Origin: Acidobacteriota bacterium
GTDB taxonomy: Bacteria > Acidobacteriota > Aminicenantia > Aminicenantales > Saccharicenantaceae
Length of the DNA stretch: 64,000 nt
Direction: 5' to 3'
Assembly: GCA_039683095.1 (NCBI GenBank)
Contig: JBDKSB010000012.1
Coordinates: 1,117,846 to 1,181,845, forward strand
Shown here piece after piece: positions 46,398 to 59,096 of the stretch. The notes under the pieces are model-generated. The model saw nothing but the letters and a program-made list of their open reading frames with translations. It was not told where the DNA came from and searched no databases. Numbering within the stretch: the first letter of the stretch is position 1; each line of letters starts with the position of its first letter. A program made the translations under genes and the position numbers.

Positions 46398-46943
46398 GTG
46401 GGCAAACCCGTCATCGCCACCGCCTCGCTGGCCGGCTGTTTCGGCTGCCACATGTCCCTCCTGGACATCGACGAGCGCATCCTCAAGCTGGTCGAGCTGG
46501 TCGAGTTCAACAAGTCGCCGATCGACGACATCAAGGAGTTCACCAAGCCCGTCGACATCGGCCTCATCGAGGGCGGCTGCTGCAACAGCGAGAACGTCCA
46601 TGTCCTGCGGGACTTCCGCAAGAACTGCAAGGTCCTCGTTTCGGTCGGCGAATGCGCCATCATGGGCGGCCTGCCGGCCCTGCGCAACGGCATCCCGCTC
46701 AAGGAGTGCCTCGAGGAGGCCTACCTGAACTCGCCCACGATCGCCCCCGAGGACCGCCTCATCCCCAACGACGAGGACCTGCCGATCATCCTGGACAAGG
46801 TCTATCCCTGCCACGAGATCGTCAAGATCGACGCGTTCCTGCCGGGCTGCCCGCCCTCGGCCGACCTCATCTGGGAGGCCCTGACCGCGCTCATCGAGGG
46901 CCGGCCCCTGCACCTGACCTACGATCTGGTCAAATTCGACTGA
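46398..46943 (+). CDS. hoxY: [NiFe] hydrogenase small subunit HoxY
   Basis: 181 aa from GTG at 46398. One proximal [4Fe-4S] site: CFGCHMS, the Cys of SVGECAIMGG, and PGCPPSADLIW. The short length, lacking the medial and distal clusters of membrane uptake enzymes, is typical of cytoplasmic group 3d HoxY; there is no Tat signal. Pairs with HoxH. Confidence 0.95.
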   Translation: MGKPVIATASLAGCFGCHMSLLDIDERILKLVELVEFNKSPIDDIKEFTKPVDIGLIEGGCCNSENVHVLRDFRKNCKVLVSVGECAIMGGLPALRNGIPLKECLEEAYLNSPTIAPEDRLIPNDEDLPIILDKVYPCHEIVKIDAFLPGCPPSADLIWEALTALIEGRPLHLTYDLVKFD

Positions 46944-46956
46944 AGAGTGAACAGCC

Positions 46957-48405
46957 ATGGGCAAGAAGATCACCATAGAACCCGTCACCAGGGTCGAAGG
47001 GCACGGCAAGGTCACCATCCGGCTCGATGACGCCGGCCGGGTCACGGAGTCCCGCTTCCACGTCGTCGAGTTCCGCGGCTTCGAGCGCTTCGTCCAGGGC
47101 CGCCCCTACTGGGAGGCGCCGGTCCTGGTCCAGCGGCTCTGCGGCATCTGCCCCGTCAGCCACCACCTGGCCGCGGCCAAGGCCATGGATGTCGTGGTCG
47201 GGGCCGGGCCCGGCAAGCTGCCGGTCACGGCGGAGAAGATGCGCCGGCTCATGCACTACGGCCAGATGGTCCAGTCCCACGCCCTGCATTTCTTCTACCT
47301 GGCGTCGCCCGACCTCCTGCTGGGCCTGGACGCCGACCCGGCCGTCCGCAACGTCATCGGCATCATCGGCCTGGACAAGGACCTGGCCACGCGGGCCGTC
47401 CTGCTGCGCAAGTTCGGCCAGGAGATCATCCTGGCCACGGCCGGCAAGAAGGTCCACGGCACGGGCGCCGTCCCGGGCGGGATCAACAAGAACCTCTCCC
47501 CCGAAGAGCGCGACCGCTTCCTCAAGGCCCCCGACGGGCTGACGATCGACCGGGTGATCGAATGGTGCCAGGCCGCCGTCGACCTGTTCAAGGGCTACCA
47601 GGCCAGGCACAAGGACCTGGTCGACGGCTTCGCCGTCTTCCCCTCGAACCACCTCAGCCTGGTCCGCAAGGACGGGGCCCTCGACTTCTACCACGGCGTC
47701 CTGCGGGCCGTCGACGCCGACGGCCGCAAGGTCCTCGACGACGTCGATTACCAGGACTACCTCGAGTACATCGGCGAGGAGACCCGGCCCTGGAGCTACA
47801 TGAAGTTCCCCTACCTGCGGTCGCTGGGCAAGGCCGCCGGCTGGTACCGCGTCGGCCCGCTGGCCCGGCTCAACACCTGCGACTATATCCCCTCGCCGCT
47901 GGCCCAGAAGGAGTTCGAGACCTACAAGGCCTACACCGACGGCAAGCCCAACAACATGTCGCTCCACAGCCACTGGGCCCGGCTCATCGAGCTGCTCCAC
48001 GCGGCCGAGGTGGTCAAGGAGCTCCTGCTCGACAAGGACCTCCAGGGCTCGAAGCTGGTCAAGACCGGTCCGCGCGCTCCCGAGGGCATCGGCCTGATCG
48101 AGGCGCCGCGCGGCACCCTGTTCCACCATTACCGCGTCAACGGCGACGACCAGATCACGATGGCCAACCTCATCGTCTCCACGACCAACAACAACGAGCC
48201 GATGAACCGGGCCGTCCAATGGGTCGCCATGAACGTGCTCTCGGAGAAGCCCGAGATCACGGAGGGCATGCTCAACCGCGTCGAGGTGGCCATCCGGGCC
48301 TACGATCCCTGCCTCAGCTGCGCCACGCACGCGCTGGGCCGGATGCCGCTCGAGGTCGCTCTCGTCGATGCGGCGGGCCGGGTCCTCCAGAGGAAGGTCC
48401 GCTGA
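46957..48405 (+). CDS. hoxH: [NiFe] hydrogenase large subunit HoxH
   Basis: 482 aa. Nickel-iron ligands: RLCGICPVSHH (Cys62, Cys65) and DPCLSCATH (Cys452, Cys455). The sequence continues about 26 residues beyond the last motif, so a C-terminal extension must be cut by a maturation protease, presumably the one encoded next. VEFRGFERFVQGRPYWEAP and QSHALHFFYLASPDLLLG are typical of group 3d. The enzyme interconverts H2 and NADH in the cytoplasm. Direction in vivo depends on redox state. Confidence 0.96.
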   Translation: MGKKITIEPVTRVEGHGKVTIRLDDAGRVTESRFHVVEFRGFERFVQGRPYWEAPVLVQRLCGICPVSHHLAAAKAMDVVVGAGPGKLPVTAEKMRRLMHYGQMVQSHALHFFYLASPDLLLGLDADPAVRNVIGIIGLDKDLATRAVLLRKFGQEIILATAGKKVHGTGAVPGGINKNLSPEERDRFLKAPDGLTIDRVIEWCQAAVDLFKGYQARHKDLVDGFAVFPSNHLSLVRKDGALDFYHGVLRAVDADGRKVLDDVDYQDYLEYIGEETRPWSYMKFPYLRSLGKAAGWYRVGPLARLNTCDYIPSPLAQKEFETYKAYTDGKPNNMSLHSHWARLIELLHAAEVVKELLLDKDLQGSKLVKTGPRAPEGIGLIEAPRGTLFHHYRVNGDDQITMANLIVSTTNNNEPMNRAVQWVAMNVLSEKPEITEGMLNRVEVAIRAYDPCLSCATHALGRMPLEVALVDAAGRVLQRKVR

Positions 48406-49993: not shown

Positions 49994-50145
49994 TAGTCGC
50001 CCGCCTGTGAGGCCGGCCGACGGCCGAAAGCCGCCGTGCCCCGCCTCGCTTCCCCCCGCCTCCTGCCTGACCCCCTTCAGGGGGGACCCGCGCCGATCTT
50101 CCCGTTTTGCGCTTGCAAGGACAATCCACGTACCGGAGGGATGAT

Positions 50146-50619
50146 TTGGACATCGACACTACGAAGGTCCAGTCGATCGTCGACAAGCACAGGGGCCTCA
50201 AGAAGAACCTCATCGCCATCCTTCTCGACGTCCAGGAGAGCTTCAACTACCTTCCCCCGGAAGCCCTGCGACACGTCGCCAAGGCCCTGGACATGCCCCT
50301 CATCAACGTCGTCGGCGTAGCCACGTTCTACCGGGCCTTCAGCCTGAAGCCGCGGGGCAAGCACACCTGCCTCGTCTGTCTCGGCACGGCCTGCCACGTC
50401 CGGGGCGGACCGAAGATCCTGGAGGAGCTCGAGCGCAAGCTCGACATCCCGGCCGGAGAGACGACGAAGGACGGACTGTTCACCCTGGAGACGGTCGCCT
50501 GCCTTGGCTGCTGCGCCATCGGGCCGGTCGTCGTCGTCGACGGCGAGTATCACGGCCGCGCCACGATCCGCAATATCGGACCGATCCTCGGCAAATACCA
50601 GGCGCCGGAAGCGTCATGA
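50146..50619 (+). CDS. NuoE-like [2Fe-2S] subunit (HydC/HndA type)
   Basis: 157 aa from TTG at 50146, chosen because GGAGGG ends six bases upstream. A helical N-terminus (LKKNLIAILLDVQESFNYLP) leads to the thioredoxin-like [2Fe-2S] domain with four cysteines: CLGTAC... gives two and CLGCCAIGP gives the others, all retained, unlike the NuoE part of HoxF. It is the BfuC/HydC component of NADH-linked bifurcating complexes. First gene of a five-gene operon. Confidence 0.93.
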   Translation: MDIDTTKVQSIVDKHRGLKKNLIAILLDVQESFNYLPPEALRHVAKALDMPLINVVGVATFYRAFSLKPRGKHTCLVCLGTACHVRGGPKILEELERKLDIPAGETTKDGLFTLETVACLGCCAIGPVVVVDGEYHGRATIRNIGPILGKYQAPEAS

Positions 50620-50638: not shown

Positions 50639-51031
50639 ATGGCCGGAACAAAGAAACTCCGCATTCAAGACCTGGCCAAGATCCGGGAAAGGACAAAATC
50701 GATGATGGCCATCCGGGAGAGCGAAGGCCGGGCCCGCGTCACGGTCCACATGGGCACGTGCGGCATCGCCGCCGGCGCCCGCGACATCATGGATGCCCTT
50801 CTCGGGGAGATCGAGAAGGCCCAGATCCAGGACGTCATCGTCACGACGTCGGGGTGCGCCGGGCTGTGCAACGCCGAGCCGATGATGACCGTCGAGCTCA
50901 AGAACCATCCCCCCGTGAAATACGGTTACCTGACCCCGGAGAAGCTGCACAAGATCTTCGTTCAGCACATCCTCGGCGGGCAGATGGCCGCCGACCTGGT
51001 GCTGGCCGTCGGCTGCGAAACCATGTATTAG
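50639..51031 (+). CDS. Thioredoxin-like [2Fe-2S] protein (HndB-like)
   Basis: 130 aa. Helical N-terminus, then VHMGTCGIAAGAR and SGCAGLCNAEP, giving the Cys pattern of thioredoxin-like [2Fe-2S] ferredoxins; the last Cys, in AVGCETMY, is near the C-terminus. HndB occupies the same place between HndA and HndC in Desulfovibrio NADP-linked hydrogenases. 8 bases separate it from the next gene. Confidence 0.87.
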   Translation: MAGTKKLRIQDLAKIRERTKSMMAIRESEGRARVTVHMGTCGIAAGARDIMDALLGEIEKAQIQDVIVTTSGCAGLCNAEPMMTVELKNHPPVKYGYLTPEKLHKIFVQHILGGQMAADLVLAVGCETMY

Positions 51032-51039
51032 GGGGCGTC

Positions 51040-52857
51040 GTGAAACACTACCGAGCTCACCTTCTGGTCTGCGCCGGCACCGGCTGCGTCTCCTGCGGAT
51101 CGTTCAGGATCAAGGAGGCCCTCGAGGCCGAGATCAAGAAGAAGGGCCTCGAAGACGAGGTCCAGGTCGTGGCCACGGGCTGCAACGGCTTCTGCGAGCG
51201 GGGGCCGATCGTCATGGTCCAGCCCGACGGCATCTTCTACCAGCTCCTCAGCGTCGAGGATGTCCCCCATCTCGTCGAGGAGCACCTCCTCAAGGGCCGC
51301 CCCGTCCAGAAGCTGATGTACGTGCCGCCGGACGAGAAACAGCCCGTCCCGAAGATGAAGGACATCGAGTTCTTCAAGCACCAGCGGCTGATCGTGCTGC
51401 GCAACCGGGGCCGGATCGACCCGGAGAGGATCGAGGAATATATCGCCTTCGACGGCTACGAGGCCATGGCCAAGGCCCTCTCCGGGATGAAGCCCCAGGA
51501 GATCATCGACGAGATCCTTTTCTCCGGCCTCCGCGGCCGGGGCGGCGCCGGCTTCCCCACGGGCAGGAAGTGGGCCCTCTGCGCCAAGGAGAAAAGGTCG
51601 CCGAAGTACATCATCTGCAACGGCGACGAAGGCGACCCGGGGGCCTTCATGGACCGCTCCGTCCTCGAGGCCGATCCCCACGCCGTTCTCGAAGGTATGG
51701 TCATCGGGGCCAGAGCCATCGGGGCGGCCAAAGGATTCGTCTACATCCGCCATGAATATCCGCTGGCGCTCAAGCGCATGGAGATCGCCATCGCCCAGGC
51801 CCGGGAGAACGGCCTGCTCGGCCAGGACATCCTGGGGACCGGCTTCGATTTCGATCTCGAGATCGTCCAGGGCGCCGGAGCCTTCGTCTCCGGCGAGGAG
51901 ACGGCCCTGATCGCCTCCGTCGAGGGCGAGATCGCCATGCCGCGGCAGAGACCCCCCTATCCGGCCCAGAGGGGGCTATGGGGCCAGCCGACGGTCATCA
52001 ACAACGTCGAGACCTGGGCCACCGTCCCCAACATCATCCGCCGGGGCGCGGACTGGTTCCAGGGGCTGGGGACGGAGACAAGCAAGGGGACCAAGATCTT
52101 CGCGCTCGTCGGCAAGATCGCCAATACCGGGCTGGTCGAGGTCCCGATGGGGATCACCCTTCGCGAGATCGTCTACGGCATCGGCGGCGGCATCCCCGAT
52201 AAGCGGGATTTCAAGGCCATCCAGATCGGCGGCCCCTCCGGCGGCTGCCTGCCGGCCAAGATGCTCGACCTGCCCGTCGACTACGAGAGCCTGACCGCGG
52301 CCGGGGCCATGATGGGCTCGGGCGGCATGATCGTCATGGACGACCGGACCTGCATGGTCGACGTGGCCAAGTACTTCCTCAATTTCCTGCAGGACGAGTC
52401 GTGCGGCAAGTGCGTGTCCTGCCGGGAAGGCACGCAGAGGATGTACGAGATCGTCAAGGGCATCACCGAGGGCAAGGGCCGGGAAAGCGATCTTGCCCTG
52501 CTCGAGGAGCTGGCCACGATCTGCAAGGACGCCTCGATGTGCGCCCTCGGCCAGACGGCGGGCAATCCCGTCCTGACGACCCTGCGCTACTTCCGCCACG
52601 AGTACGAGGCCCACATCCTCGACAAGAGATGCCCAGCCGGCGTCTGCAAGAGCCTCATCCGCTACGTCGTCCTCGCCGAGAAGTGCACCGGCTGTCAATC
52701 CTGCAAGAAGGCCTGCCCGAACGACTGCATCAAGGGCACTCTCAAGGATGTCCACCTGATCGACCAGTCGAAATGCATCAAGTGCGGCGCCTGCAAGGAG
52801 GCCTGCAAGTTCGAGGCCATCGAAGAGCAGCGCGACGAAGCCATTCAGATCGTTTGA
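51040..52857 (+). CDS. NuoF-like FMN/NADH subunit with extra ferredoxin domains (HydB/HndC type)
   Basis: 605 aa from GTG at 51040. Four regions: an N-terminal [2Fe-2S]-like domain (CAGTGCVSC, GCNGFC); a NuoF core with GLRGRGGAGFPTGRKW near 166 (FMN) and CNGDEGDPGAF (NADH); ESCGKCVSC near 452 with MCALGQT for [4Fe-4S]; and a C-terminal two-cluster ferredoxin (CTGCQSCKKAC ~548, CIKCGACKEAC ~578). The N- and C-terminal additions separate HydB-type bifurcating subunits from complex I NuoF. It is the presumed NADH and ferredoxin branch point. Confidence 0.94.
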   Translation: MKHYRAHLLVCAGTGCVSCGSFRIKEALEAEIKKKGLEDEVQVVATGCNGFCERGPIVMVQPDGIFYQLLSVEDVPHLVEEHLLKGRPVQKLMYVPPDEKQPVPKMKDIEFFKHQRLIVLRNRGRIDPERIEEYIAFDGYEAMAKALSGMKPQEIIDEILFSGLRGRGGAGFPTGRKWALCAKEKRSPKYIICNGDEGDPGAFMDRSVLEADPHAVLEGMVIGARAIGAAKGFVYIRHEYPLALKRMEIAIAQARENGLLGQDILGTGFDFDLEIVQGAGAFVSGEETALIASVEGEIAMPRQRPPYPAQRGLWGQPTVINNVETWATVPNIIRRGADWFQGLGTETSKGTKIFALVGKIANTGLVEVPMGITLREIVYGIGGGIPDKRDFKAIQIGGPSGGCLPAKMLDLPVDYESLTAAGAMMGSGGMIVMDDRTCMVDVAKYFLNFLQDESCGKCVSCREGTQRMYEIVKGITEGKGRESDLALLEELATICKDASMCALGQTAGNPVLTTLRYFRHEYEAHILDKRCPAGVCKSLIRYVVLAEKCTGCQSCKKACPNDCIKGTLKDVHLIDQSKCIKCGACKEACKFEAIEEQRDEAIQIV

Positions 52858-52865
52858 GAGGGACC

Positions 52866-53549
52866 ATGATCACCTTTCGCATGAATGGGTTGGAAGTGAA
52901 GGCGGAGGAGGGGTCGACCATCCTCGACGCGGCCAGGTTCTACGGCCTGGAGATCCCGACCCTCTGCTACAACGAGGGGCTGACGCCCTTCGGGGGGTGT
53001 CGGCTCTGCGTCGTCGAGATCGGCGAGGGCCTGAGGAGCAAGCTCGTCTCGTCCTGCACCTATCCCGCCGAGGAGGGGCTCGTCGTCCGGACCGATTCCG
53101 CCAGGGTCTGGGCGTCCCGGCGGATGATGATCGAGCTCATGCTGGCCATGGCCCCGGGGTCCAAGGTCCTCCAGGATATGGCCTCACGGTTCGGGGTGAC
53201 GCGGGTCCGGTTCACCCCCCGCAACGGCGAGTGCGTTCTCTGCGGCCTGTGCACTCGCATCTGCGCCGAGCAGATGGACGCCTCGGCCATCGGCTTCCAG
53301 CAGCGGGGCCACAAGAGAAAGATCTCGACGCCCTTCGACATGCGCTCGGAGGTCTGCCGGCTGTGCGGGGCCTGCATGTACATCTGTCCCGCCTGTCAGC
53401 TGCGCTGCCAGGGCCCGAACGCCGAAACGGCTCTGTGCAACGGCTGCCTGACCATGGAACCGACCTGCCTGGAGCACTACGACGATCTGCAATGTTGGAT
53501 GTACGATGCGGGCCGCTGTGGCACCTGCGTTCAAGAAAAGAAACCCTAA
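52866..53549 (+). CDS. NuoG-N-like iron-sulfur protein without H-cluster domain
   Basis: 227 aa. [2Fe-2S] domain at residues ~34-64 (LCYNEG, CRLC, SCTYP), followed by two [4Fe-4S] motifs: CVLCGLCTRIC (~122) and CRLCGACMYICPAC (~165). A Cys-rich end (CNGCLTMEPTC, CGTC) may bind another cluster or zinc. It equals the N-terminal electron-relay part of HydA, but stops before the [FeFe] hydrogenase domain. There is no debris of that domain after it. It presumably passes electrons to the glutamate synthase-like protein encoded 22 bases downstream. Confidence 0.88.
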   Translation: MITFRMNGLEVKAEEGSTILDAARFYGLEIPTLCYNEGLTPFGGCRLCVVEIGEGLRSKLVSSCTYPAEEGLVVRTDSARVWASRRMMIELMLAMAPGSKVLQDMASRFGVTRVRFTPRNGECVLCGLCTRICAEQMDASAIGFQQRGHKRKISTPFDMRSEVCRLCGACMYICPACQLRCQGPNAETALCNGCLTMEPTCLEHYDDLQCWMYDAGRCGTCVQEKKP

Positions 53550-53571: not shown

Positions 53572-55155
53572 ATGCCGAGTCTCACGAAAATCAACAGAAG
53601 CGCCGCCACCCTGACCAAGAACAGGACCGAAGGGTCGATCAGCCCCTTCAGCGGCATGTGCGTGACCTGCGTCGACGGCTGCATCGGGATGTGCGAGATC
53701 GGCAAATCCGCCTACCGAGGCGCCGAGGTCCTCTATCCCCAGCCGTTCGGCATCATCACGGCCGGCTGCGAGAAGGACTATCCCGTCGACCTGTCCCACT
53801 TCAGCATCATGGGCACGGCCAAGGGGGCCTGCGGCGTCGAGGCCGACAGCGACAAGGCGACCTTCGAGAAGGTCACGGTCGAGACGAAGATCGGCCGCAA
53901 CAAGGACATCAAGCTCAAGGTCCCGTTCATCATCTCCGGCATGGGCTCGACCAACGTGGCCCGGCAGAACTGGGCCGGCCTCGGCGGCGGCGCGGCCATC
54001 GCCGGGTCGATCCTGACGATCGGCGAGAACGTCTGCGGCATGGACGACGAGACGGAGCTCAAGAACGGCCGGGTCGTCCGCTCGCCGGACATGGAGTTCC
54101 GCATCAGGTCCTACCGTGATTGGCAGGACGGCTACGGCGACGTCGTCGTCCAGGCCAACGTCGAGGACACGCGGCTGGGCACCCAGGAGTACGCCATCGA
54201 GAAGCTGGGCATCGAGACCGTCGAGCTCAAGTGGGGCCAGGGGGCCAAGGATATCGGCGGCGAGGTCAAGCTCAAGACCGTCACCAAGGCCCAGGCCCTG
54301 AAAAAGAAGGGCTACATCGTCCTGCCCGACCCCGAGGACCCCAACGTCATCGCCGCCTTCGAGAAGGGCAGCTTCAAGGAGTTCGAGCGCCACTCCCGCA
54401 TGGGCATGGTCGACGAGGGCGACTTCATTAAACGGGTCGAGGAGCTGCGCAGGATCGGGGCCAAGCACGTCTTCCTGAAGACGGGCGCTTACCGGCCGGC
54501 CGACCTGGCCCGGGCCGTGAAGTACGCCTCCAAGGCCAAGCTCGACCTCCTGACGGTCGACGGCGCCGGCGGCGGCACGGGCATGAGCCCCTGGCGGATG
54601 ATGAACGAGTGGGGCATCCCGACCGTCGAGATCTGGTCCCTGACCTGGAAGTTCGCCGACCAGCTGGCCAAGCAGGGCGAGTACGTGCCCGACCTGGCCT
54701 TCGCCGGCGGCATCACCTTCGAGGACCAGATCTTCAAGGCCCTGGCCCTCGGCGCGCCCTACGTCAAGGCCGTCGGCATGGCCCGCTCGCCCCTGGCCGC
54801 GGCCATGGTCGGCAAGACGATCGGCGGCCGCATCGCCGACGGGCAGATCCCGGTCTACGTCGAGCGCTTCGGCAGCAGCCGGGACGAGATCTTCGTCACC
54901 GCGCCCGAGCTGCGGCGGCGCTTCGGGGCCCGGTTCGAGGAGCTCCCGTCCGGGGCCATCGGCGTCTACACCTACTTCAAGCGCCTCAGCCAGGGCCTCC
55001 GCCAGATGATGGCCGGCGAGCGCAAGTTCACGCTCGACTACATCAACCGCGACGACATCGCCTCCCTGACCAGGGAGGCGGCCGATATCAGCGGCATCCC
55101 GTACATCACCGACGTGGACAAGGAAGAGGTCCAGAAGATCCTCAAGGGCAAGTAG
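53572..55155 (+). CDS. FMN-binding glutamate synthase-like oxidoreductase
   Basis: 527 aa. The barrel from about residue 130 matches the glutamate synthase FMN domain: VPFIISGMGSTNVARQNWAGL, VELKWGQGAKDIGGEVKL, LLTVDGAGGGTGMSPWRMM and FAGGITFEDQIFKALALGA. There is no amidotransferase domain. The usual three cysteines for a [3Fe-4S] cluster after the barrel are absent; instead CVTCVDGCIGMC near residues 30-41 could bind a cluster. The substrate is unknown. Being last in an NADH/ferredoxin operon, it is the likely catalytic end. Strong GAGGAGG before the start. Confidence 0.88.
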   Translation: MPSLTKINRSAATLTKNRTEGSISPFSGMCVTCVDGCIGMCEIGKSAYRGAEVLYPQPFGIITAGCEKDYPVDLSHFSIMGTAKGACGVEADSDKATFEKVTVETKIGRNKDIKLKVPFIISGMGSTNVARQNWAGLGGGAAIAGSILTIGENVCGMDDETELKNGRVVRSPDMEFRIRSYRDWQDGYGDVVVQANVEDTRLGTQEYAIEKLGIETVELKWGQGAKDIGGEVKLKTVTKAQALKKKGYIVLPDPEDPNVIAAFEKGSFKEFERHSRMGMVDEGDFIKRVEELRRIGAKHVFLKTGAYRPADLARAVKYASKAKLDLLTVDGAGGGTGMSPWRMMNEWGIPTVEIWSLTWKFADQLAKQGEYVPDLAFAGGITFEDQIFKALALGAPYVKAVGMARSPLAAAMVGKTIGGRIADGQIPVYVERFGSSRDEIFVTAPELRRRFGARFEELPSGAIGVYTYFKRLSQGLRQMMAGERKFTLDYINRDDIASLTREAADISGIPYITDVDKEEVQKILKGK

Positions 55156-55394: not shown

Positions 55395-55751
55395 ATGATC
55401 GTTCTCAAGGACGTTCTGGCCCTTCTCGACGGCGAGCTCCTCACCCCGGCAACCGCCCCCGAGGCGGCCTTCGGCAAGGTTTTCGCCTCCGATCTCATGA
55501 GCGACGTCCTGACCTCCGCCGAGCCCGGCTCTCTCCTGCTGACGGGGCTGGCCAATTCTCACGTCGTCTGCACCTGTTCGGTGGCCGATCTCGCCGGCGT
55601 CGTCTTCGTCCAGGGCAAGCGCCCGGCGCCGGAGGTAGTCCGCGAGGCCGGGACGAAGAACCTCCCCCTCATCGCCACCAAGATGACGATGTTCGAGGCC
55701 TGCTCGCGGATCGCCGGCCTCTTACAGGACGGAGGCCATGCCCGCCGCTGA
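55395..55751 (+). CDS. DRTGG domain protein 1
   Basis: 118 aa. A single DRTGG-type alpha/beta domain: ASDLMSDVLTSAEPGSLLLTGL, VVFVQGKRPAPEVVREA and LPLIATKMTMFEACSRIAGLL. DRTGG domains bind nucleotide-like ligands or act in kinase regulation and frequently lie beside [FeFe] hydrogenase operons. SD GGAGG. Overlaps the next gene by 14 bases. Confidence 0.85.
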   Translation: MIVLKDVLALLDGELLTPATAPEAAFGKVFASDLMSDVLTSAEPGSLLLTGLANSHVVCTCSVADLAGVVFVQGKRPAPEVVREAGTKNLPLIATKMTMFEACSRIAGLLQDGGHARR

Positions 55752-56187
55752 GCCCGTCTTCCGCCGGGAGTTCCCCGTCAAGGGCGGGGACTTCGCCAAC
55801 GCCGGAGCCGCCGCCTGTGAAATCAAGGAGCTGCTGAAGGACCTCGGGCTGGCCACCGCGACGATCCGCCGCGCGGCCATCGTGGCCTACGAGGCGGAGA
55901 TGAACGTGATCATGTACGCGAGCGAGGCCCGGATGAACCTGGCCGTCTCCTCGGAGGAAGTCCGCCTGACCATCGACGATCGCGGCCCCGGCATCGCCGA
56001 CGTCGAACTGGCCATGACGGAAGGCTATTCGACGGCGACGGCAGAGATGCGGGAGCTCGGCTTCGGCGCCGGCATGGGCCTGCCGAACATCAAGAGGAAC
56101 GCCGACGTCTTTGCCATCGACTCGGAGGTGGGCCGGGGGACGCGCCTCGACATCATCATCCGGACGAACGGACACGGACCATCATGA
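55738..56187 (+). CDS. RsbW/RsbT-like ATPase (anti-sigma/serine kinase fold)
   Basis: 149 aa. GHKL ATPase fold: the N-box lies in RRAAIVAYEAEMNVIMYA, the G1 box in IDDRGPGIAD and the G2 box in GFGAGMGLPNIKR. There is no dimerisation/phosphoacceptor domain, so it is like RsbW/RsbT serine kinases, not a complete histidine kinase. Overlaps its neighbours on both sides. Presumed signal output or input of the [FeFe]-like sensor next to it. Confidence 0.88.
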   Translation: MPAAEPVFRREFPVKGGDFANAGAAACEIKELLKDLGLATATIRRAAIVAYEAEMNVIMYASEARMNLAVSSEEVRLTIDDRGPGIADVELAMTEGYSTATAEMRELGFGAGMGLPNIKRNADVFAIDSEVGRGTRLDIIIRTNGHGPS

Positions 56188-57485
56188 ACGAGACCAAGAC
56201 CGAAAAGAACTTCCACGCCATCCACATCACCAAGGACAAGTGCATCGGCTGCGTCCGCTGCCTGTCCGCCTGCCCGACCCGGGCCATCCGGGTCCAGGAC
56301 GGCCGGGCCCGCATCATCGGCCAGCTCTGCATCGACTGCGCCGAATGCCTCCGGATCTGCCCGCGCGACGCCATCCACTCCCACACCACCTCGTTCGCCG
56401 CGCTAGACGCCTTCGATTACAAGGTCGCCATCCCCTCGACGGTGCTCTACGGCCAGTTCGGCTCCTCCGTCCTGCCCAACGAGATCCTCTCGGCCCTGCG
56501 CCGCATCGGCTTCGACGAGGTCTACGACCTCAGCTCCATCTGCGAGCTCAACTGCGCGGCGACCGAGGAGTACCTCAACGACCACCCCCGGCCGCGGCCG
56601 TACATCACCTCGACCTGCCCGGTCGTGGTCCGCATCATCCAGCGGCGCTACGCGTCGCTCTGCGGCCAGATCCTGCCCATCGAGCCGCCCCGGGAGATCG
56701 CGGCCAAGATCCTGCGCACGATCCTGCCCAAGTCGCTCGGCCTCCCCGCGGAACGGATCGGGATCATCCACATCACCCCGTGCCCGGCCAAGATCGTCTC
56801 CATCAACAGTCCGGCCTCCCTGGCCAAGTCCTACCTCGACGGGGCCATCTCGATCCGGGACATCTTCCCGCAGGTCGTCAAGGCCCTGCGCAAGAGCGAG
56901 GAGGACTCCCTGATGCGGCACCTTTTCCCGGAGACGCTCTTCAGCGGCATCGGCATGGGCTGGTCCCTGTCCGGGGGCGAGATCCGGGGGCTCAAAAGCC
57001 ATCGGGCCGTGGCCGTGTCCGGCATCCAGGACACCATGCGCGTCCTCGATCAGGTCGAGGGCGGGCTCCTCCAGGACATCGACCTGCTCGAGTGCACGGT
57101 CTGTCCGGACGGCTGCGTCGGGGGGCCCCTCGAAGTCGAGAACCGCTTCCTGGCCAAGAGCCGGATCCTGGAGCTCGTCGCGGCCGCCGGCGAGCACGCC
57201 GTCGTGGACCAGAAGGACGTCAGCCGGCTCTATCACCGGAACTTCCTGTCGTTCGACCACCCCGTGCCGCCTGCCGAAGCCCGGCCCCTGGACCTCGATC
57301 CGGCCACGGCCATCCGCAAGGCCAAGCTCCGGGACAAGATCGACGCCGGCCTGCCCCAGAAGGACTGCGGCATCTGCGGCGCGCCCGACTGCCGGACCCT
57401 GGCCGACGATATCGTCCGCGGCTACGCCCGGCTGGAGGACTGCCCGTTCGCCGAGACGGCCAAGACGAAGAAGGAGAAACGATGA
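56184..57485 (+). CDS. [FeFe]-hydrogenase-like putative sensor protein
   Basis: 433 aa. Two [4Fe-4S] motifs at the N-terminus (CIGCVRCLSAC ~20, CIDCAECLRIC ~49), an iron-hydrogenase large-subunit fold (~75-340), and a C-terminal CGICGAPDC...C four-cysteine FeS domain (~395-425). The H-cluster motifs are altered: TSTCP (Cys145; the proton-relay Cys is Thr), TPCPAK (Cys200) and ECTVCPDGC (Cys304, Cys307, Cys311). The four cubane ligands can be filled, but the catalytic relay is lost. This fits the sensory groups of [FeFe] hydrogenases. Overlaps on both sides with module genes. Confidence 0.87.
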   Translation: MNETKTEKNFHAIHITKDKCIGCVRCLSACPTRAIRVQDGRARIIGQLCIDCAECLRICPRDAIHSHTTSFAALDAFDYKVAIPSTVLYGQFGSSVLPNEILSALRRIGFDEVYDLSSICELNCAATEEYLNDHPRPRPYITSTCPVVVRIIQRRYASLCGQILPIEPPREIAAKILRTILPKSLGLPAERIGIIHITPCPAKIVSINSPASLAKSYLDGAISIRDIFPQVVKALRKSEEDSLMRHLFPETLFSGIGMGWSLSGGEIRGLKSHRAVAVSGIQDTMRVLDQVEGGLLQDIDLLECTVCPDGCVGGPLEVENRFLAKSRILELVAAAGEHAVVDQKDVSRLYHRNFLSFDHPVPPAEARPLDLDPATAIRKAKLRDKIDAGLPQKDCGICGAPDCRTLADDIVRGYARLEDCPFAETAKTKKEKR

Positions 57486-57823
57486 TCCTGTCCGATCTGG
57501 TCCCGCGTCTCGAGCTCAAGGTCTTCACGGCCGGCGTCGCGCTCGACCGGCCTGTCCGCGGCGGCTACGCGAGCGACCTCCTCAGCGACGTCATCGGCCA
57601 CGCCCGCAAGGACGACCTCTGGGTGACCATGCAGGTCCATCCGAACATCGTCGCCGTCGCGGTCCTCAAGGAGCTGGCCGCCATCGTCGTCGTCAACGGC
57701 CGCGAGCCGGCTCCCGAGACCCTGGAGCAGGCCGCCCGCGAGAAAGTGCCCATTCTCGGCGCCGGTTCGGGCACGTTCGAGCTGGCCGGGCGGCTGTACG
57801 GACTCGGCCTCAAGGGAAGTTGA
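57482..57823 (+). CDS. DRTGG domain protein 2
   Basis: 113 aa from the ATG at 57482, overlapping the previous stop (ATGA). Same fold as the first DRTGG protein: GGYASDLLSDVIGHARKDDLWVTMQ, VVVNGREPAPETLEQA, VPILGAGSGTFELAGRLYGLG. The two share SDLLSDV and REPAPE-type blocks, so they are probably an old tandem duplication split by the sensor gene, perhaps forming a heterodimer. Confidence 0.83.
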   Translation: MILSDLVPRLELKVFTAGVALDRPVRGGYASDLLSDVIGHARKDDLWVTMQVHPNIVAVAVLKELAAIVVVNGREPAPETLEQAAREKVPILGAGSGTFELAGRLYGLGLKGS

Positions 57824-58569
57824 TGTCCCTGCGCCGTCTGCGGGCCGACCTCCACATCCACACCTGCCTGTCCCCCTGCGGCGAGCTGTCGATGTCGCCG
57901 CGGGCGGTCGTCGAGCGGGCCCGGGCGGCCGGGCTCGACCTCATCGCCGTCACCGACCACAACACGACCGAGAACGCCGCCGCCGCCACGGCCGCGGCCG
58001 GCGGAACCGGGCTGGCCGTCCTGCCCGGCATCGAGCTGACGACCGCCGAGGAGGTCCACGTCCTCGGGCTCTTCGACGCCGGCGCCGACCTCGGCCCTTT
58101 CCAGGCCGAGGTCTACCGCAACCTGCCCGACGTCCCGTCGAAAGCGAAGTTCATCGAGGACCAGGTCCTCGTCGACGCGGACGACTATGTCATGGGCTTC
58201 TGCCCCCGGGGCCTGTTCGGGGCGACGCGGTTCCCGGTCCGGGACGCCGTCGAGCTCATCCACGCCCACGGCGGGCTGGCCATCGCCTGCCACGTCGACC
58301 GCGAGGCCTTCGGCATCATCGGCCAGCTCGGCTTCATCCCGCCCGGACTCGGGCTCGAGGCCGTCGAGGTCTCGCCCCGGACGACGGCGGCCGAGGCCCG
58401 GGCAAGCCTCGGCTCCATCGGGTCCCTGCCCATCGTCCGCTTCTCCGACGCCCACAGGCCCGAGGAGATCGGCGCGGCCGTCACCGAATTCCTCGTGGCC
58501 GGCCCGTCGCTCGGGGAGATCCGCCTGGCCCTGGCCGGCGAGTCCGGACGGGAGGTCCTCGCTCCATGA
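57823..58569 (+). CDS. PHP domain phosphoesterase
   Basis: 248 aa from the ATG at 57823 (TGATG overlap with the previous stop). Metal ligands of the PHP trinuclear site: DLHIHTCLSPCG, VTDHNT, PGIELTTAEEVHVLGLF, ACHVDREAFG and FSDAHRPEEI. Related proteins hydrolyse phosphate esters such as nucleotides or oligonucleotides. In this module it may remove a phosphate or a nucleotide signal set by the ATPases. SD-like sequence upstream is poor, consistent with coupled translation. Confidence 0.88.
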   Translation: MSLRRLRADLHIHTCLSPCGELSMSPRAVVERARAAGLDLIAVTDHNTTENAAAATAAAGGTGLAVLPGIELTTAEEVHVLGLFDAGADLGPFQAEVYRNLPDVPSKAKFIEDQVLVDADDYVMGFCPRGLFGATRFPVRDAVELIHAHGGLAIACHVDREAFGIIGQLGFIPPGLGLEAVEVSPRTTAAEARASLGSIGSLPIVRFSDAHRPEEIGAAVTEFLVAGPSLGEIRLALAGESGREVLAP

Positions 58570-59096
58570 TGGAGGACCTCTCGCTCCACATCCTCGATCT
58601 CGCCGAGAACGCGGTGGCCGCGGGCGCGACGCGCGTCCTCATATCGGTCAACGAAAACGAGCGGCGCGATGTGCTGACCATCCGGGTCGCCGACGACGGC
58701 CGGGGCATGCCGGCGGCGGACCGGGCCCGGGCCCTCGACCCGTTCTTCACGACCGGGCGGAAGAGGACCGGCCTCGGGCTGCCTCTGCTGGCCCAGACGG
58801 CCGAGCTCTGCGGCGGCCGCCTGACCATCGCTTCGGCGCCCGGCCGGGGCACGGCGGTCGAGGCTCGCTTCCCGTTCTCGCACCTGGACCGGCCGCCGCT
58901 GACGCGGATGGCCGAGACCATGATGACCCTGTTCTTCGGCCATCCGGGCGTCAGCTTCCGCTACGCCCACGCCCGCAACGGCCGTCGTTTCAGCGTGTTG
59001 CGGCGGGGCCGGGAGAGCGCCGCGGCGGACGCGGCCGAGATCACCGCGCTGCGCGACGCGTTGCGGGCGGGATTGAAGCGGGTCGGAGCGGCGTGA
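58566..59096 (+). CDS. GHKL ATPase (histidine kinase-like) protein
   Basis: 176 aa. N-box in LHILDLAENAVAAGA, G1 in VADDGRGM, F-box and G2 in DPFFTTGRKRTGLGLPLL, followed by an added ~60-residue C-terminal region (SFRYAHARNGRRFSVL). It lacks the His phosphoacceptor region. HydE-type ATPases of this kind accompany bifurcating [FeFe] hydrogenases in acetogens. Last gene of the module, overlapping the PHP gene by four bases. Confidence 0.88.
   Translation: MMEDLSLHILDLAENAVAAGATRVLISVNENERRDVLTIRVADDGRGMPAADRARALDPFFTTGRKRTGLGLPLLAQTAELCGGRLTIASAPGRGTAVEARFPFSHLDRPPLTRMAETMMTLFFGHPGVSFRYAHARNGRRFSVLRRGRESAAADAAEITALRDALRAGLKRVGAA

Follow-up and report, generated by a model that had tools for sequence, protein, structure and literature searches.

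What does a protein that has the whole fold of a hydrogen-sensing iron hydrogenase do in a bacterium in which genes for building the H-cluster are not detected? This question is raised by a gene at positions 56184–57485 of the 64,000-nucleotide stretch of Acidobacteriota DNA analyzed here (hereafter, the window). The open reading frame runs on the + strand from an ATG at 56184 to a stop codon at 57485, as placed by an earlier sequence-only reading of this DNA. Pfam searches of the 433-residue product identified a 4Fe-4S dicluster domain, the Fe_hyd_lg_C domain (PF02906, 1.7e-25) and, at the C-terminal end, an FeS domain (PF04060, 2.2e-12); no PAS domain was matched by Pfam, and the chain ends at residue 433. 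An AlphaFold2 model of the protein, built with 62 relatives in the alignment, was predicted with high confidence (pLDDT 92.5, pTM 0.91), and a Foldseek search with this model returned [FeFe]-hydrogenases, for example Desulfovibrio desulfuricans HydAB and CpI, at query TM-scores of 0.6–0.7. Orthologues were present in 12 of 12 other genomes sampled from the same genus, with one copy split across two contigs, and dN/dS within the genus was ~0.15–0.42, showing that purifying selection acts on the gene. The gene shares 4-bp overlaps with both adjoining genes. A degenerating pseudogene is ruled out by the dN/dS values, the intact operon and the confident model.

To place the protein among the [FeFe]-hydrogenase groups, a careful maximum-likelihood tree of 80 proteins was built with 200 bootstrap trees. 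Groups A (100/100), B (100/96) and C (100/99) came out separate, and the protein fell inside group D, in a nested subclade that we name D-prime (100/100). D-prime formed one clade in 100% of the 200 bootstrap trees and spans at least six phyla, with ordinary group D being paraphyletic in this rooting. The nearest relatives outside the phylum are from WOR-3 (L040, 56% identity) and Stahlbacteria (L041, 54% identity). Scores against TIGR02512 and TIGR04105, the curated models for groups A and B (78.7 of 405.95 bits and 91.2 of 450 bits, respectively), fell well short of both cut-offs. The domain order is that of group D, comprising two N-terminal [4Fe-4S] motifs, the H-domain and a C-terminal Cx2Cx4Cx16C motif, with PAS absent. 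The group C/M2f HydS of Thermotoga maritima shares the two N-terminal clusters, the H-domain, the C-terminal Fe-S domain and the missing relay cysteine; however, the group C proteins in our set are mostly ~580–750 aa long and form their own clade, outside which the protein lies, whereas the present chain stops shortly after the Fe-S domain. Taken by its sequence, the protein is a descendant of the group D (M2e) putative sensory [FeFe]-hydrogenases. The sequence-only reading had leaned toward a sensory group and had proposed a tree of groups A–D as the check; that tree bears out the affinity, and the protein falls in neither catalytic group A nor B.

Comparison with TamHydS, the characterized group D/M2e protein of Thermoanaerobacter mathranii (PMC8163306, PMC10407848, PMC13104023), places most of the features that had attracted attention in context. 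TamHydS has the same domain order and cluster motifs, and the two proteins also have in common the lack of the relay cysteine, a hydroxyl residue in place of Met353, the S249-GG-E252 motif and E289, and the absence of PAS. The T. wiegelii orthologue (L110), which is 39% identical to the present protein and lies in the same gene module, was used to transfer TamHydS numbering, with S249, E252, D265 and E289 checked against the published positions. Published group D traits include two N-terminal clusters, a C-terminal Cx2Cx4Cx16C, no Cys299 and a hydroxyl at Met353, and TamHydS, which carries them, turns over H2, albeit slowly (PMC8163306, PMC10407848, PMC13104023). The motifs TSTCP (residues 142–146), TPCPAK (198–203), ECTVCPDGC (303–311) and CGICG..C are all found in the protein, just as first reported. 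Most of these features thus mark group membership. Loss of the relay cysteine, or TPC in place of MPC, does not imply inactivity: TamHydS has Ala and Ser at these positions, yet turns over H2, and characterized members of groups C and D are active without the cysteine (PMC8163306, PMC10407848). Nor is the C-terminal Fe-S domain the novelty, or the departure from common sensors, that it had been taken for, as groups C and D both carry one (PMC13104023, PMC8163306). Differences from TamHydS include Thr rather than Ala or Ser at the relay position, Ser in place of Asp265, and a genome without HydE, HydF and HydG. What is unusual in D-prime is thus the missing maturases and an eroded pocket, not the traits flagged at the outset.

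The protein retains ligands for four [4Fe-4S] sites. Two N-terminal sites are formed by C20, C23, C26 and C30 and by C49, C52, C55 and C59; the four cubane ligands of the H-domain are C145, C200, C307 and C311; and the C-terminal Cx2Cx4Cx16C corresponds to C395, C398, C403 and C420. In addition to these 16 cysteines, there are four more, C120, C124, C160 and C304. The last is the extra cysteine of the sequence-only reading; it is real, but it is not peculiar to this protein, being found in 3 of 25 ordinary group D proteins as well. C120, on which that reading was silent, is shared by 22 of 24 D-prime proteins and is Ala in ordinary group D; it is a gained cysteine near the start of the helix that holds proton-path residues in group A. 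Across D-prime, the four cubane cysteines are kept in 24 of 24 proteins, as are the other cluster cysteines, except for a single gap at the last one and Cys17 (TamHydS numbering), which is lost in 18 of 24. It is this residue, and not the C20 ligand of TamHydS, that is lost in part of D-prime; equivalents of both are kept in the present protein. D-prime proteins may possibly hold another cofactor near Cys120. Separately, two further Acidobacteriota proteins outside the set of 24 (L019 and L020) have the H-domain L3 motif EASAHMMGC, in which His replaces the cubane ligand Cys499; their genomes contain maturases for other [FeFe]-hydrogenases.

In the active-site pocket, T144 occupies the C299 relay position, and Thr is near-constant there in the lineage (18 of 19 close relatives, with Val in one). 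T198 lies at M353, a position held by Ser or Thr in 25/25 core group D and 24/24 D-prime proteins. The proton-path residues S263 (S249), E266 (E252) and E303 (E289) are kept and, together with K203 (Lys358), are invariant within the genus. The D265 equivalent is S279, leaving the S249/E252/D265/E289 path incomplete; this proposed path is conserved in most group D members and does not define the group. Asp265 is present in 25/25 HydF-positive group D proteins versus 1/24 D-prime proteins, 21 of which have Ser, and Glu252 in 23/25 versus 6/24. Position 299 is only Ala or Ser in core group D, versus Thr, Ala, Phe, Ser, Val, Cys, Tyr or His in D-prime. Retention of the ligands together with erosion of the proton path fits a domain that would hold the cubane without the 2Fe subsite. 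The present protein represents the conservative end of D-prime, with a pocket that looks more like that of group D than most. Its kept equivalents of Cys17, Lys358, Ser249, Glu252 and Glu289 speak against an unconstrained pocket and are the main reason why our confidence is moderate. Elsewhere in group D, a Clostridial set (L052, L064, L066, L074, L085 and L109) has Arg in place of Lys358 and Gln in place of Glu252. In the two of these loci with long enough contigs, the gene adjoins BfuB and Rnf-type genes (RnfC/D/G-type in L085, RnfC-type in L052). This set could possibly represent a second departure from H2 sensing.

Profile searches detected no HydE, HydF or HydG over cut-off in the protein's own genome, which is 95% complete and has a single PF02906 gene, or in eight other D-prime genomes of the same phylum (91–99% complete). 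T. maritima was positive for all three in the same searches, and T. wiegelii was positive too. With nine near-complete genomes in agreement and the controls positive, it is unlikely that maturases were missed through incompleteness. HydF was found in 5 of 29 distinct D-prime genomes versus 25 of 30 ordinary group D genomes, counts for which Fisher values are descriptive, the genomes being related. Four of the five HydF-positive D-prime genomes hold a separate A-type [FeFe]-hydrogenase, which explains their maturases. When D-prime is the only [FeFe]-type gene, as in the present genome, HydF was found in 1 of 24 genomes (G153) and HydG over cut-off in none of the 24. The genomes of L017 and L019 encode A- and C-type hydrogenases as well as HydF and HydG. 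The best explanation for these patterns is that D-prime has lost dependence on the H-cluster maturases. The absence of hydE, hydF and hydG, a check that the sequence-only reading had called for, argues against an intact H-cluster and strongly favors its suggestion that the protein never binds the 2Fe subcluster. Judging from gene content and residues, the [2Fe] subsite is very probably empty, with the H-domain carrying at most its [4Fe-4S] cubane. There is a precedent for a fold kept without [2Fe]H in Nar1 (PMC12621388). A literature search that reached few subscription journals turned up no description of group D proteins without maturases. In another genome of the phylum (G064, 91% complete and without HydE, HydF and HydG), a group C-like [FeFe]-hydrogenase gene is located at C143:6043-7248.

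The gene is embedded in a compact module (Table 1), in which the genes for DRTGG protein 1, the RsbW-like protein, the D-prime protein, DRTGG protein 2, the PHP protein and the HATPase follow one another, each overlapping the next by 4 to 14 bases. Of the 50 loci whose flanks were long enough (long loci), 48 had an RsbW-like homologue; in the window its gene overlaps the hydrogenase-like gene by 4 bp. The queries for the two DRTGG proteins match each other's homologues. The HATPase_c gene holds the position of HisK in bifurcating-hydrogenase operons. BfuB was detected in 38 of the 50 long loci, and the other 12 have the D gene with no BfuB detected nearby. The module is conserved beside bifurcating BfuBC cores.

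Table 1 Features of the window around the D-prime gene.
Feature	Position	Strand	Evidence
NiFe-hydrogenase small subunit	46398-46943	+	Position and operon homology
NiFe-hydrogenase large subunit	46957-48405	+	PF00374 3.9e-30; VhuA model 1.1e-125, below its cut-off
BfuC/HoxE-like 2Fe-2S subunit	50107..50619	+	PF01257 3.3e-48; HoxE/NuoE models
HydD-like small protein ("Trx" in the neighbourhood analysis)	50645..51031	+	Neighbourhood tblastn; name by operon position and literature
BfuB-type NuoF protein, 609 aa	51028..52857	+	TIGR01959 1.4e-148 (below cut-off) and ferredoxin-domain matches
Short BfuA/HoxU-like iron-sulphur subunit without H-domain	52854..53549	+	PRK07569 (HoxU) 1.4e-33, below cut-off
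FMN glutamate-synthase-domain protein	53572..55155	+	PF01645 2.1e-18; between Bfu genes and module
DRTGG-domain protein 1	55395..55751	+	PF07085 5.7e-07; homologue in 48/50 long loci
RsbW/SpoIIAB-like HATPase (anti-sigma-factor-kinase type)	55738..56187	+	PF13581/PF02518; SpoIIAB model below cut-off
Group D (D-prime) [FeFe]-hydrogenase homologue	56184..57485	+	433 aa
DRTGG-domain protein 2	57482..57823	+	PF07085 1.1e-05; homologue in 48/50 long loci
PHP-domain predicted phosphoesterase	57820..58569	+	PF02811 5.4e-08; 43/50 long loci
HATPase_c protein without HisKA domain	58566..59096	+	PF02518 6.7e-19; 39/50 long loci

Ahead of the module, the window carries BfuC, BfuB and BfuA genes of the Bfu family, which includes NiFe-HydABCSL and FeFe-HydABC (PMC9304861, PMC8880783). 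The order of NiFe genes, BfuC, HydD-like, BfuB, short BfuA, glutamate-synthase-domain gene and module is the same in L143 of the same genus. The BfuB-type protein has N-terminal 2Fe-2S and C-terminal ferredoxin domains, and the NiFe-hydrogenase comes with its own NuoE/NuoF-like genes upstream of BfuC. The window HATPase and HydD-like genes match by position the hisK and hydD genes of Bfu operons, neighbors that lie outside the purified enzyme (PMC9304861, PMC8880783); the D-prime protein itself is no Bfu subunit by sequence. TamHydS is encoded upstream of a bifurcating hydrogenase (PMC8163306); unlike its locus, the window has a BfuA without H-domain and a NiFe-hydrogenase nearby rather than FeFe HydABC. 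The glutamate-synthase-domain gene is absent from the Bfu partner types listed in the portions available to us of the two Bfu papers (PMC9304861, PMC8880783). Its product occurs in 46 of 60 relatives, but was seen beside the D gene only in the window's genus. The 80 named loci gave no match to it, nor did the PDB yield a natural relative. In this genus it may be a Bfu partner not described so far.

The partner of the Bfu core varies. The catalytic neighbor is FeFe HydA in most Clostridia and a NiFe-hydrogenase in several Aminicenantes, while the Stahlbacteria locus L041 has a BfuA with an Nfn-like (transhydrogenase-type) Pyr_redox domain and the Deltaproteobacterium locus L111 a molybdopterin oxidoreductase. 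For 16 BfuB loci no partner was assigned by this method, several through a contig end. In three metagenome-assembled genomes lacking a completeness estimate (G159, G162 and G193), no NiFe-hydrogenase was found, and the sole PF02906 gene is the D-prime one. The varied partners and these three genomes without another hydrogenase show that the module follows the Bfu core more than H2. In L053 (2066-3358), a BfuA-like protein and a glycine cleavage H-protein domain (PF01597, 1.8e-19) form a single fused chain.

These observations bear directly on whether the protein could still be a genuine H2 sensor, with a full H-cluster made by an unrecognized maturation route and sensing on behalf of the NiFe-hydrogenase, as has been proposed for TamHydS next to HydABC. 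The protein does have the family and architecture of TamHydS, which is active without the relay cysteine (PMC8163306), it keeps K203, S263, E266, E303 and T198, and its gene shares one cluster with the upstream NiFe-hydrogenase, a point that also counts against a 2Fe-free protein. However, we consider such a sensor quite improbable: HydE, HydF and HydG are absent from its genome and from eight near-complete relatives of the phylum, Asp265 is lost, the sister proteins in L041 and L111 adjoin non-hydrogenase Bfu partners, and in three D-prime genomes neither a NiFe-hydrogenase nor a further [FeFe]-hydrogenase was detected. Of the proposal "H2 or redox sensor", the H2 half is thus disfavored for D-prime by the missing maturases, the often non-hydrogenase partners and the three genomes without other detectable hydrogenases, whereas the redox half may hold. 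As H-cluster-building genes are missing from this genome and 22 relatives, the sensor body probably now reads electron balance rather than hydrogen.

We therefore weighed what a 2Fe-free protein might do beside a Bfu core. Nar1/CIAO3, as described in the literature (PMC12621388), is [FeFe]-hydrogenase-like with [4Fe-4S] sites and no [2Fe]H; the likeness considered is one of mechanism; its context is unrelated, and it has two [4Fe-4S] sites rather than the four of the present protein. By analogy, the protein might be an assembly or repair factor that, with the ATPases and the HydD-like protein, builds or inserts clusters in BfuB or BfuA. The operon is linked to BfuB and not to any single catalytic subunit; HydD and HisK are missing from the purified enzyme, and a part in maturation, regulation or both is assumed for them (PMC8880783, PMC9304861); Nar1 is a proposed Fe-S trafficking factor whose emptied cavity may hold a [2Fe-2S] cluster (PMC12621388); and the new cysteine C120 is widely conserved in D-prime. 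Yet the RsbW-like and PHP proteins resemble signaling parts, and the D gene also occurs in the 12 long loci with no BfuB nearby, so that we regard an assembly role as rather unlikely. Less likely still, the protein could be an electron-transfer subunit, a relay of up to four [4Fe-4S] clusters docked to Bfu without any signaling. The 16/16 cluster cysteines of the protein (15/16 across D-prime, barring one gap) and the tight linkage of the module to BfuC/B genes would suit such a relay, but purified NiFe-HydABCSL of A. mobile consists only of A, B, C, S and L (PMC8880783), an operon for which the D gene is not shown, and the constant kinase-like and phosphoesterase neighbors would be left unexplained.

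The reading that we prefer, and hold as evenly balanced overall, is that of a sensor-derived, 2Fe-free Fe-S protein that may report redox state for a Bfu-type enzyme, working as a multi-cluster redox relay or sensor. In this proposal, ferredoxin or the neighboring Bfu complex would pass electrons to the clusters of the protein, and their redox state would pass out through the C-terminal Fe-S domain. The module's RsbW-like, HATPase and DRTGG proteins and its PHP phosphoesterase would be controlled by this output and, in turn, would tune how strongly the Bfu enzyme is expressed or how active it is. What the protein reads would be the ferredoxin/NAD(P)H balance, and not H2. That the C-terminal cluster of TamHydS did not react to H2 (PMC13104023) makes an output route through this domain less convincing. 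A redox-signaling role for this particular protein might equally prove right or wrong. With slightly less assurance, we suggest that D-prime may represent bacterial "hydrogenases without an H-cluster", that is, 2Fe-less group D proteins serving Bfu enzymes of any substrate as sensors of the ferredoxin/NAD(P)H redox state or as partners in Fe-S assembly.

What group D hydrogenases do in the cell has been called unknown (PMC8163306), and they count as H2 sensors because of their relatedness to group C and their location next to HydABC. D-prime provides a natural experiment, having the same module, no maturases and often non-hydrogenase partners; the protein, four Fe-S sites and the Bfu core stand out as necessary for the module, and H2 and the 2Fe subsite as dispensable. 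A group D gene or a PF02906 match alone should also not be taken as a sign that Aminicenantes, WOR-3, Zixibacteria and similar lineages in metagenomes have an [FeFe]-based H2 metabolism. If the view of D-prime as hydrogenases without an H-cluster is true, the group D module would originally have served to watch the Bfu core, not H2 itself.
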